A stretch of DNA of 64,000 nt from Haematococcus lacustris (Eukaryota > Chlorophyta > Chlorophyceae > Chlamydomonadales > Haematococcaceae): positions 1,195,466 through 1,259,465 of the forward strand of contig JASKMD010000009.1 of assembly GCA_030144725.1 (NCBI GenBank), read 5' to 3'. The translations under genes were made by a program, and so were the position numbers. Below, piece after piece: positions 30,513-58,409 of this stretch. Position 1 is the first letter of the stretch. Every line of letters begins with the position of its first letter. The notes under the pieces are model-generated. The model did not search any database. It was not told the DNA's origin and saw only the letters and a list, made by a program, of their open reading frames with translations.

Positions 30513-31720
30513 CAGCACCTTGGCCCTCAACCTAGGGCCGTCATTGCCGTGGAACACTAAGCGTGGACCACTACAAAACAATGTTTTCGTCTGTGTGGAT
30601 TTCCCATGCACATGGCATGCACATGGGCATGGTCGCCTACCACCTGCACCACTGCCTGACCCAGAGGGCTATGATCTAGAGTTGGCATGACAAACATGTG
30701 CTGATTGTAAGCTGATGACAGCTTTTAGGGGGGGTCACACTACTATGCCTCAGCAGGCTGCTGCTGCTGCTGCTGCTGCTGCTGGGTCTTGGGTGGGCGG
30801 TCTCGCACCCGCTTGTAGCCCAGGCCTGGGTACTCCTTGCCCTTGGCTGGCAGAGCTTCCCGGTCTGGCCACCAGCACAGCTCCAGCGGGCGCCACCTGC
30901 TCTCCCCAATGCGCTGCATGTTCAATGCTGCATTGCAGCACCTGTCTACCCACCTGCCTGGCTGTGGTGCTGGCTTGGTTTTGGCCGCTTTGCCCTGGGC
31001 CTTGCCTTTGCCCTTGGTGGGCTGGGTGGGCTCAGCTGCCTGCTCAGCCTTGGTGCGCTTGCTGCGCTTGGCTGGCGGGGGAGTGCTGGGCCCAGGCTCT
31101 GTGGCTGCTGGCTGTGTAGCTGCCTGGCTGCTGCATGGGGCCTGTGGGGGCTTGCGGGGGGCCATTACAGGGCACCACATCATACCCAGCACTGGCTGGT
31201 CACGCTGCTGGCTCCAGGCTGGGCGCAGCAAGCGCTGTTCCACCTGCCCTGCTGGCAGCTTCCAGTCAGCAGGCCTGGTGGCCTTGCGTTTGTTTAGCCG
31301 GCTCTCACAGGGCTGCTGGCCATTCACTGCTGAGCTGACCCAGCTGGTGCGGTGCTCATCCACAAGCACCACCCTGCCCCGCCGCTAATCTGTGCCCCAG
31401 TCATGCACAGTCATGCCCGCAGTCATGCACACAAGTCACGCAGGGTATTTCACCATGTCTTCATGCCCAACCCACCACCTCTCAGTACATAACCCTCCCA
31501 ACCATCCTCACCTTCTTGAAGAACTGCTCCAGCGCCCGGTCCTGAGCTCCGTACAGCCTCAGCCACTGCCGTGCCCACTTGGGGTCCAGGTACACCTCCC
31601 ACACCGCGTCCCAGGTGGCCAGGGTGCCGCTGACTTGCTTCGTTTTGTCGGACGTGGTTTTTGCTTGGCGGTGCTCTTCCGCATCTTTGTATGCATTGCA
31701 TTGCATGCTTAAGGCTCATA
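30513..31720 (-). pseudogene. Fanzor copy F3, internally deleted
   Basis: The minus strand holds the helical exon (SGTLATWDAVWEVYLDPKW, ending FFKK|GTGAGG at 31512) and then the C-terminal exon ending in TAG at 30743. Between them the exon segment corresponding to 57403-57560 of F1 is missing. A CAG-to-TAG change stands just before [14 protein letters not shown]. The third RuvC motif reads DRCCNAALNM, where F1 and F2 have [10 protein letters not shown], so an expected acidic residue is lost. The C-terminus has nine Gln. The 230-base tail (30513-30742) ends with hairpin GGCCCT, loop CAACCT, AGGGCC. It sits in an intron of the NTF2-like gene, on the opposite strand. Confidence 0.8.
30758..30784 (-). 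repeat. CAG/CTG repeat, 9 units, Fanzor C-terminus
   Basis: (CTG)9 on the plus strand encodes poly-Gln on the minus strand in F3. Confidence 0.9.
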
Positions 31721-31960
31721 CCAGCTCATACCTGCTCAAACCAGTGTGTCACTCCGCCACATCACTCTCGCACCTCCAGGAGGCAGGCTTTCGAGGTACA
31801 CATATATATATCTAAATTGATCATCATGACACTGTCAGTACAGAACCACAGTCACGCAGTCAGCACAGTCAGCACAGAAATGCTTGCCAACCAGCCTGCT
31901 CACTTGTGAATGCCGCTGCTTTCTCTCATGCCTCCATTGCTACCTTGACACTTACGACAG

Positions 31961-32602
31961 GCTCTGGTGCTACTGCGTTGCCCATGTTGCAGTGTCACTA
32001 GCTTTGCTGGCTCACTGCTAGCAGGGCCTGCTCCCACAGAGACCTCGAGTCACAGCAGCAGCAGCCCAGGGGCGGCGCCCACTGTGAAGCCCATGGAACT
32101 CCTAGCTGGGAGGGCTGGCCACTTGACAGCTGCCCAGCCTCACCACCACCTTAGCGCACCACAGACTGCACCAAGTGTGGACAGCTCACCCCTTCCCTCA
32201 TGCCGTTCAGCAGCGGGCGCATGCAGCCCACCCAGGCCTCGCGCAGGGTTTGCCGACGACGCCCAGCGCAGTGATGCCAGCCCTGCTCCAGCCCTCTCAC
32301 TGACAGCAAGTGTGGTGCCGGAGGGCCCTGCTGTCAACAACGTGGTGGCCTTCAGTGTGCATATCCCTCGCACAGATGAGGCGCCTCAGGCTCTGGGGGG
32401 CGGCGGCAGCAGCAGCAGTGGCAGCAGGGCAGTCTCCGCACACAGTGGCACCCACCAAGAGCGGATAGCAAACACTGGTGGCCGCAGCCCCAGCAGGAGG
32501 GGAGCAAGTCCTTGCCGCCGCGATGCCCCACCTGCGCGTGCCATGACGCTGGAAGGACCCATGGTGGCGGCTACTCCGGTGGGACATAGACACACACCTT
32601 AG
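31961..32602 (+). other. Ser/Pro/Ala-rich open region, possible linker exon
   Basis: A 211-codon frame follows a good acceptor (ACGACAG). It contains AVNNVVAFSVHIPRTDEAP and ends near MVAATPVGH. A possible donor, CTCCG|GTGGGA, would join in phase 0 to the exon at 32907. In the phase left by the exon ending at 30471, however, a stop appears after about 19 codons. The link is therefore unproven. Confidence 0.3.
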
Positions 32603-32906
32603 CTGGGTCAACGTGTGCATGTGCAGAGGAGCCACACACCAGGGGTATTGCACCTCACCTAACCCACCAGGGCTGTTGCCTCTGTTGCTGACCATTGCAG
32701 CCTTGGGGGCCTGCACAGGGTCCCCGGCAGGGGGAGCTGGCACCTCTTGGGCTCCCGTAGGCTGTTGCCCCTGTGTGCAAAAGTGTACAAAGAGATGTTT
32801 GTACCTGATGCTACCATTTGATCTGTTGAGCTTTCTCAAGGCGCTGGCTTGAACCATGCTGTGTGTCACCCTCGAGGTGCGGCTGACTGCTGCCTGATAG
32901 GTGCAG

Positions 32907-56216: not shown

Positions 56217-56345
56217 GGTCCAGGTCGAAGATGAGGGTAAGGGTGGAGATGGAGATGGGGGTGTATGTGGCGATGGGGGGTGGGGAGTAGGTGAAGAGGT
56301 AAGTGTAGGTGAAAAAGGAGGCGGAGGTGAGCAGGAGGAACGATG

Positions 56346-56526
56346 TGAGTAGGAGGTGGTGGACATGGCTGCGCGATATGCCCTGTGTCCGCGCGGGCTG
56401 CTAGCAGGAGGAGGTGGTGGACATGGCTGCGCGATATGCCATATGTCCGCGCGGGCTGCTAGCAGGAGGAGGTGGTGGACATGGCTGCGCGATATGCCAT
56501 ATGTCCGCGCGGGCTGCTAGCAGGAG
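56346..56526 (+). repeat. 60-bp tandem repeat, 3 units
   Basis: Unit GTGGTGGACATGGCTGCGCG plus ATATGCC(A/C)TATGTCCGCGCGG and GCTGCTAGCAGGAGGAG. Two inverted units occur in F5 (40.11-40.23 kb). The unit contains GCGCGATATGCC / GGCATATCGCGC inverted relations. Confidence 0.9.
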
Positions 56527-58174
56527 GACTACACACACACCCTCCCCCCTCCTCCTGCCTCATGGATGCGGGGACAATGCAGGGACAATGCAGGGACAAA
56601 TGCAGGGATTAAGTTCTAGGAGTGTACCCCCAGTGGCAGGCCCTTCAGCAGCAACAACCTCCCAGCGGCAGCATCAGCGGCCCATGTGCTGGGACTCCCC
56701 CCCATCAGCAAGGCCCTAGCTGAGACGCGCGAGATTGTGTTTGACCCAGCCACACAGATTGGGGTGGGCATCGACCCCGGCGTCACCAAGGCAGTCAGCG
56801 CAGCCTCAGGGGTGTAAAACAAAGAGTGTGGTAGCAGACAAACAAAATTCATTCAACAAGGAAAAACATGTTTGCCTGTGGGTAATCTCACTCAGCTACT
56901 CCAAACATGTTGAAGCATCCTCGGTCGCACCCTTGATGCATGACCATTGCTGTATGGGCAGGAGTGTGGTAGCAGACCAGCTGGGCCGGTGGAAGCTGAT
57001 TAAGGGCCAGGTGCAGCATGCCAGCGGCCTGAACAACTCCCGCTGCGACACTGAGCGGTGGCTAGCACCGATCAAGCCCCACCTCCAGCACCTGGCAGCA
57101 GCAAGCTCAGCCGGCACCTCCTTGGTGGCCAACCTGAAGCACATCAGCGGCACCCTGGCCACCTGGGATGCGGTGTGGGAGGTGTACCCTGGACCCCAAG
57201 TGGGCACGGCAGCGGCTGAGGCTGTATGGGGCCCAGGATCGGGCGCTGGAGCAGTTCTTCAAGAAGTTGAGGATGGTTGGGAGGGTTGTGTACTGAGAAG
57301 TGGTGGGTTGGGCATGAAGCCTTGGTGCATGAAGCCTTGGGCATGAAGCCATGATGCCACCATGTCAGCCACCCTGCGTGACTTGTGTGCATGACTGCAA
57401 ATAGAGGATGAGATGGCTGAGGTTTCCATGGAGCGCCATGGGCGTGCCAATCAGCTGATGGTCTTCTTTGGTGCAGCTACCATTGGCACCAGGGGAGGCT
57501 GGGGTGCGGATGCGGTGCTGCGTGCCTGCTGCAAGGTGGTGTGCAGGCCCAGGGGGACAGACCAGCGGCGGGGCAGGGTGGTGCTTGTGGATGAGCACCG
57601 CACGAGCCAGGTCAGCTCAGCGGTGAATGGCCAGCAGCCATGTGAGAGGCAGCTGAACAAGCGCAGGGCCACCAGGCCTGCAAACTGGAAGCCCCCAGCA
57701 GGGCAGGTGGAACACCGCCTAGTGCGCCCAGCCTGGAGCCAGCAGCGTGACCAGCCAGTGCTGGGTATGATGTGGTGCCCTGTAATGGCCCCCCGCAAGC
57801 CCCCACAGGCCCCACGCAGCAGCCAGGAAGCCTCACAGGCAGCAGCCTCAGAGCCTGGGCCCAGCACTCCCCTGCCAGCCAAGCGCAGCAAACGCACCAA
57901 GGCTGAGCCGGCAGCTGAGCCCAACAAGGCCCAGGGCAAGGCTGCCAAAGCCAAGCCAGCAGCACAGCCAGGCAGGTGGCTGGACAGGGACTGCAATGCA
58001 GCATTGAACATGCAGCGCATTGGGGAGAGCAAGTAGCGGCCGCTGGAGCTGTGCTTCTGGCCAGACCAGGGAGCGCTGCCAGCCAAGGGCAAGGAGTACC
58101 CTGGCTTGGGCTACAAGCGGCTGCGAGACAAGCCACCCAAGGCCCAGCAGCAGCAGCCTGCTGTGGCACAGTAG

Positions 58175-58409
58175 TGTGTGCCCCCCATCACTTGAAGCTG
58201 TCATCAGCTTACGCTTCGTGCATGTTTTGTCATGCCAACTCTACGGTGTAGCCCTAATGGGTCAGGCAATGCTGTAGGTGGTAGGCGACCGTGACCATGT
58301 GTATGCCATGCGATGGGAACTACACACAGACAAAGACACTGTTTTGTAGTGGTTCACAATTAGTGTGTTCGACTGCAATGAAGGCTCAAGGTTGAGGGCC
58401 AAGGTGCTG
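58175..58409 (+). ncRNA. candidate Fanzor guide RNA / element 3' end (F1)
   Basis: About 235 bases directly after the F1 stop recur after the coding remnants of F2-F5 (30513-30742, 33186-33480, 37131-37370, 39665-39890), and in part in F6 and F7. Conserved words include GCTGTCATCAGCTTA, GTCATGCCAACTCTA, GGCAATG..GTAGGTGGTAGGCGACC and a GTAGTGGTTCAC block. It ends with hairpin GGCTC...GAGGGCC and AAGGTGCTG, after which all copies diverge. Fanzor and TnpB guide RNAs are known to come from the 3' end of the nuclease gene and the adjacent element end, so this is the natural position. No transcript evidence is available here. Confidence 0.5.

Follow-up and report, generated by a model that had tools for sequence, protein, structure and literature searches.

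Fanzor1-like mobile elements in Haematococcus lacustris: shared 3′ ends, variable 5′ ends, and target-site duplications preceded by GGCTG

A 64,000-nucleotide (nt) stretch of the Haematococcus lacustris genome (here called the window) holds a dense cluster of Fanzor-like sequences, which raises two questions: whether such a cluster arose by local spread, and by what route its members were copied. The wider question is how eukaryotic RNA-guided nucleases spread. Judged by sequence comparison, the window copies are old, truncated members of a genome-wide mobile element. As a sequence-only reading of the window had anticipated, the family is informative about mobility, here by way of target-site duplications at other places in the genome.

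The window copies and their genome-wide family

Using tblastn and blastn inside the window, we found seven related copies (A to G) spanning positions 30513 to 58411, six on the minus strand (A to F) and one on the plus strand (G). This agrees with the initial description of at least seven related copies within 28 kb, mostly on the minus strand. Short pieces excepted, the copies match G at 78 to 97% identity, and the best E value per copy lies between 3.9e-24 (C) and 0 (A and B), far above chance level. The same 3′ end, at the identical base or no more than 2 bases off, is present in A, B, D, E, and G; the common 3′ tail proposed for the cluster therefore holds for these copies and is not reached in C and F. 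The 5′ ends are different in every copy, and internal deletions are present in A, E, and F. We considered whether these deletions could be removed introns, and on comparison by eye with intron borders they showed no resemblance.

The family extends across the genome. Three protein database searches at an E value of 0.001 gave 1374, 1300 (only 8000 candidates scored), and 216 matching proteins; among the matches listed (120 per database search), all come from H. lacustris and are named hypothetical or uncharacterized. On the practical side, this means that more than 1000 predicted proteins match the family. In the 307.9-Mb assembly containing the window, one of the retrieved proteins (P0128) had at least 148 exon matches, mostly stop-free, on at least 21 contigs; these counts are lower bounds (86,930 first-look candidates, 66 of them scored), and first-look candidates are not copies. 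The third protein search also contained two further subfamilies, one combining VDEFRT with DRDTN and the other VDEFRT with DRDCN. Compared with the young reference copy L033, the window copies represent other and more diverged subfamilies, aligning to it only up to bases 3697 to 3756 of 3857. The decay first described for the cluster is seen in the window copies, whereas other genomic loci retain open frames. No relatives were found in viral contigs, prokaryote contigs, or phages, a result that says little because these collections hold few eukaryotes.

We compared A, B, F, and G with each other and with the first 231 retrieved proteins. B and G are mutually nearest (96% over 223 residues), whereas for A and F the nearest sequences are proteins encoded elsewhere. 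Because the family is genome-wide and A and F are closest to outside proteins, the cluster is better read as a sample of the family than as the local spread first proposed, B and G being the only pair among the four whose closest relatives are each other. Local tandem or segmental duplication of a single Fanzor gene would explain six copies on one strand and the closeness of B and G; the outside relatives of A and F, the differing start points, the 3′ flanks that look unrelated by eye, and a target-site duplication of B's own make it very improbable. That duplication is a 15-bp direct repeat, GTGCTGACTTGAGTG, on the minus strand, with its 5′ copy at 34217 to 34231 and its 3′ copy at 33177 to 33191, the latter overlapping B's own 3′ end, GTGCTG.

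Two or more DRDxN motifs occur in 21 of the 231 retrieved gene models (P0001, P0002, P0003, P0121, P0122, and 16 others), a pattern suggestive of tail copies that landed within or next to older ones. Two gene models, P0230 and P0260, fuse reverse transcriptase to Fanzor pieces, and these fusions may be only neighboring insertions. An uncharacterized Fanzor-encoding element is given as the commonest repeat of another green alga, Auxenochlorella UTEX 250-A, in the portions available of a preprint (PMC12633428) that mentions Haematococcus in another context; we liken the two elements by description only. In literature joining Fanzor, Helitron, or TnpB with Haematococcus, judged partly from listings, no treatment of the present element was apparent.

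Element ends, target-site duplications, and the route of copying

We fetched 20 longer genomic stretches (L031 to L050). Most have sharp ends, and most of the long copies are 2.0 to 3.8 kb in length; they share the 3′ end and are often 5′ truncated or internally deleted. In young copies the 3′ end reads ...GATCCGGCTCAAATGGAGGCCCTAGTGAGGGACAAGGGGGCTG and follows a long inverted repeat. The 5′ region of many copies resembles TTGTGTATTTTCACACAACCGTGTATTTTTCACGG, and the stretches upstream of it vary between copy groups.

We looked for flank repeats at 18 ends, which came from 17 long loci, L043 contributing two. The other three of the 20 (L041, L044, and L048) were omitted, their two ends being unpairable, and for L040 we placed the 5′ edge manually. 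A repeat of at least 9 bp was present at 10 of the 18 ends, compared with 4 of 304 mismatched pairs. At those ten ends, the letters ahead of the repeat are GGCTG in eight, GGCTA in L043a, and GACTG in L045, and the 3′ letters of the element itself are GGCTG in nine and GGTTG in L047. Two shorter repeats follow GGCTG (L040) and GACTG (L046), and further cases of duplication were seen at L002/L003 (GGCTG) and L016 (GACTG). Window copy B, for its part, is flanked by GTGCTGACTTGAGTG, and its own subfamily ends 3′ in GTGCTG. With very many copies and readable duplications in one genome, both the target rule and the copying route become measurable. Separately, the first 20 bases of the 3′ flank are identical at distinct places in three pairs of loci (L002/L003, L009/L043 [L043a], and L016/L023), which would be either duplicated segments or assembly haplotypes left unmerged.

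Duplications led by GGCTG, letters with which the element itself ends, favor target-primed insertion by a helper in trans. On balance, we lean toward a nonautonomous element that is copied by target-primed synthesis with a putative helper in trans, and we infer an RNA intermediate, a helper, and priming as follows. The putative helper would nick the target at GGCTG or close to it. The nicked strand would then pair with the 3′-terminal GGCTG of the intron-containing element RNA, and synthesis would proceed 5′-ward, often halting early. Insertions made in this way would all share one 3′ end, differ at the 5′ end, and carry short duplications with the 3′ letters of the element just ahead of them; 3′-anchored, 5′-truncated copies with variable duplications are what we found. 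Retrotransposons of the long interspersed nuclear element (LINE) type, which lack long terminal repeats (LTRs), also leave 3′-anchored copies with 5′ truncation and variable duplications, and their 3′ end pairs with the target. The Haematococcus element differs from them in that no reverse transcriptase was seen, the inferred intron is kept, and no poly(A) is present.

Several observations weigh against target-primed copying. Eight of the 18 ends lack a duplication of at least 9 bp, and in a looser scan of all fetched loci many ends had no repeat, partly because most short loci stop before their 5′ end. We noticed the GGCTG rule only afterward, and the mismatched-pair control does not cover the GGCTG match. 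No poly(A) tail was seen at the 3′ ends read. The inferred intron between the RuvC-I and RuvC-II exons is retained in all 45 resolvable loci, which is unusual for LINE-driven mRNA copying; this intron is taken from the depositors' gene models, and at most loci the search runs across it in a single frame. The survey covered 50 loci, 5 of them unresolved, and the 45 represent 40 distinct places (L001/L031, L005/L032, L006/L047, L011/L033, and L019/L045 overlap). Provided that the intron is real, its retention means that spliced mRNA was not the template. Finally, hairpins near the ends also fit Helitron2-like elements.

These hairpins differ in strength. The 3′ inverted repeat folds far more stably than shuffles in both young copies folded (z = −5.55 and −5.59), and the 5′ region has small hairpins (z = −2.89 and −1.63 in two copies, the second of which does not form both hairpins). 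The 3′ tails of window copies fold no better than shuffles (z = −1.06 to 0.48; four tails). In an RNAalifold analysis of 40 aligned 3′ ends, loop repeats kept the long hairpin from being recovered, and with only two both-side changes we claim no covariation. Neither the window nor any of three loci had an Rfam match at the gathering level. It had also been suggested that the cluster could record the guide RNA; the stable 3′ hairpin is the only feature seen that bears on it.

Rolling-circle insertion in its standard form is not known to make target duplications (compare PMC4067079). The element could nonetheless be a nonautonomous Helitron2 that carries Fanzor1 and is moved by a rolling-circle Rep/helicase, in one-ended, 3′-anchored events like those proposed for CRe-1, CRe-2, and CRe-3 of Chlamydomonas reinhardtii, a mechanism that we regard as possible rather than probable. 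It stays the main rival because duplications are also reported in 5′-truncated Chlamydomonas copies: the relevant passages of Bao and Jurka 2013 (PMC3627910) describe CRe-1 to CRe-3 as Fanzor1 in nonautonomous Helitron2 elements (150, 70, and 35 loci named, respectively), with duplications of ∼7 to 19 bp downstream of TTTT in 5′-truncated copies and none in insertions whose 5′ end coincides with that of the consensus. The Haematococcus element, whose copies are probably many more, resembles these families in its intron-bearing Fanzor1 gene, 5′ truncation that leaves the 3′ end intact, loss of internal segments, short duplications of variable length, and extra sequence past the 5′ end, all of which those passages describe. 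The stable 3′ hairpin and the small 5′ hairpins, each examined in two copies, may point the same way, and intron retention fits a DNA intermediate. The two differ, compared by description only, in the target, which here is GGCTG, identical in letters to the 3′ end of the element, rather than TTTT. Copies in which the 5′ hairpin region is retained (L032, L033, and L039) are also flanked by duplications, unlike the exact-5′-end insertions of CRe-1 to CRe-3, and L045 has a T-run before the shared 5′ sequence, yet the duplication is present. We did not find the pattern of full copies placed after TTTT and free of target duplication.

Terminal inverted repeats speak to a further reading as well. 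In four of five copies the longest exact inverted match linking the two ends is 7 nt, and the fifth has none, the exact 5′ end being uncertain; a match never longer than this would also count against Helitron2. Cut-and-paste movement by a transposase, either as a DNA transposon with terminal inverted repeats or as an IS607-like element, would account for a discrete element with two ends, and we find it hardly credible in view of the missing terminal inverted repeats, the variable duplication length, and the one-sided truncation. In the parts of Saito et al. (PMC10432273) that treat the point, no clear transposase association was detected for three of their nucleases.

The encoded protein

The motif triad (DPG, VDEHRT, and DRDxNAA) and a Foldseek search with a predicted model support a Fanzor1-like identity for the encoded protein and with it the Fanzor/TnpB-like assignment of the sequence-only reading, though PF07282 is sub-threshold and the zinc-ribbon signature is missing. 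The RuvC catalytic triad is retained as the Asp in DPG, the Glu in VDE, and the Asp in DRD. Among the first 231 retrieved proteins, 73 have GIDPG (RuvC-I), many others being N-terminally truncated, and 208 have DRDxN (RuvC-III, RD after RuvC-II); GVDPG or GLDPG takes the place of GIDPG in other subfamilies. The Glu of VDE[HF]RT is at the position expected for the rearranged Glu (E-alt), which by the published criteria lies six residues ahead of the zinc finger, a landmark not found here. The stretch ahead of DRD is Pro/Ala-rich in subfamilies 1 and 2 and also Lys-rich in subfamily 1, and the median RuvC-II to RuvC-III segment is 79 residues in subfamily 3, versus 133 and 122 in subfamilies 1 and 2.

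The C4 zinc finger signature E-x6-CxxC was found in none of 257 RuvC-II to RuvC-III segments, and any CxxC in only two. The text available from Bao and Jurka 2013 (PMC3627910) counts this finger among the strictly conserved Fanzor residues, whereas the corresponding text of Yoon et al. 2023 (PMC10711439) attributes a zinc finger to "many" members; under the latter definition its absence is not decisive, because only "many" members are said to carry one. Three subfamilies with the catalytic triad and without the zinc ribbon amount to a natural test of the ribbon's role.

When the AlphaFold model was compared with 350,542 PDB chains, the top four Foldseek matches were all Spizellomyces Fanzor. 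By Foldseek (ranks 1 to 4) the family would share a RuvC core with Spizellomyces punctatus Fanzor1 (SpuFz; PDB 8gkh and 9ceu), and the D-E-D motifs are common to both. It differs in the CCCC zinc finger, which SpuFz has according to the portion seen of PMC10432273 and which we did not find in the Haematococcus family; nuclease activity has been shown for SpuFz only. The structural match is weak and as such counts against the identification: the best E value is 6.9e-3, the template modeling score (TM-score) is 0.17, and the mean predicted local distance difference test (pLDDT) value is 51. A first model, built from the family-1 alignment A1, had a mean pLDDT of 39.7 and was of no use. The profile comparison suggested at the outset gave a PF07282 match that stayed sub-threshold (best E value, 1.7e-5; 25.3 bits versus a cutoff of 26.3), and PF07282 had no match in the whole genome at an E value of 0.001 (6 candidates scored). 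PDB sequence searches matched no Fanzor chain. These nulls are what one would expect of an algal repeat protein unrelated to Fanzor whose DPG/VDE/DRD motifs were due to chance, an explanation to which we give scant credence beside the triad and the Foldseek ranking.

The ratio of nonsynonymous to synonymous substitution rates (dN/dS) is 0.24 for B-G, 0.41 for A-B, and 0.41 for A-G, and neutral simulations reach these values in 0.3%, 2.2%, and 2.4% of cases, respectively. We read this as a sign that the source copies were under constraint and not that the decayed copies were.

The nuclease may also bear on insertion itself. In a zinc-ribbon-less Fanzor1 lineage carried by an RNA that retains its intron, the 3′ end of this RNA (long hairpin plus GGCUG) would be a candidate guide-RNA scaffold and primer-binding end at once, with GGCTG as the target-adjacent motif, the flank of the copy as the guide, and the nuclease helping to choose or nick the insertion site. 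We consider this improbable as it stands.

The window copies in detail and their surroundings

Copy G (54797 to 58411, plus strand) is the longest copy and has a complete 3′ end. It comprises a TDG exon (54797 to 55030), an intron with a 95-bp minisatellite (10.7 copies at 55212 to 56225; a shorter form lies in E at 43908 to 44102), and a RuvC-I exon up to 56814; coding matches, with stops, continue as far as 58141. Its 3′ terminal module (58383 to 58409) reads GGCTCAAGGTTGAGGGCCAAGGTGCTG, and the complete-ended copies A, B, D, and E finish in a similar module of 26 to 27 bases (GGCCCTAGGTTGAGGGCCAAGGTGCTG in A). A nearly perfect (GGGTG)144 array (54053 to 54772) lies just upstream of G. The motifs first quoted are present in the window copies: a 10-residue block in A and B, an 11-residue block in every copy but C (GLGCK in E), and GIDPGVTKAVSAASG with the TDG exon in G only.

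The remaining copies lie on the minus strand. Copy A (31641 to 30513) is 5′ truncated with an exon segment deleted and the 3′ end complete, matching G 57136 to 58409 with gaps; it retains VDEHRTS, and its RuvC-III Asp motif is degraded to DRCC. Copy B (34217 to 33184), 5′ truncated with a complete 3′ end, matches G 57454 to 58411 and has an open C-terminal frame at 33545 to 34219. Copy C (34792 to 34675) is a 118-bp tail fragment that lacks the last ∼62 bp and matches G 58231 to 58347, and copy D (37531 to 37131) is the final ∼400 bp of the element (G 58036 to 58409). Copy F (44677 to 44281) is internally deleted, lacks the 3′ end, and matches G 57465 to 57541 and 57965 to 58282. The 5′ edges of C and F each adjoin an (AT)n run.

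Copy E is in two parts, a 3′ half (40386 to 39665; internally deleted, 3′ end complete) and a 5′ half (44276 to 43856) with the TDG exon edge and the intron minisatellite. In G coordinates it covers 55022 to 56298 (with fewer minisatellite units), 56302 to 56528, and 58058 to 58409. From their adjoining ends, we infer that the two halves were one copy, split by a 3469-bp insertion (40387 to 43855). One end of that insertion has TATCATGATA-type palindromes, and part of it (within 40741 to 42147) recurs at 18231 to 19175 with 75 to 84% identity. By blast, two fainter relics of the element lie outside the cluster, at 19605 to 19661 and 59359 to 59505.

Most copies had been placed inside introns of one host gene, and no test supported that placement; coding exons recognized by eye on that strand flank A to F on both sides (RRM-like at 46.2 to 49.0 kb and L3-like at 28.2 to 28.7 kb), with no Pfam family in those pieces. 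In a Pfam scan of ten window pieces, only a SufB-like piece at 23.5 to 24.5 kb matched, below the cutoff.

Elsewhere in the window, a stretch at ∼17706 to 18200 is masked and appears as X in translations of open reading frames (ORFs). Interstitial, telomere-like GGGTTA arrays of ∼11 copies each lie at 2522 to 2588 and 3887 to 3955. Two dispersed repeats (35370 to 35869 and 50090 to 50679) are 94 to 99% identical in opposite orientation, and the ORF from 50172 begins MTLIKVPAMDQFV. A Ty3/gypsy-like LTR element (6749 to 13494), labeled by eye, has long ORFs at 7230 to 9155 and 9222 to 13160 and lies between 193-bp repeats that are 99.5% identical, which indicates a recent insertion.

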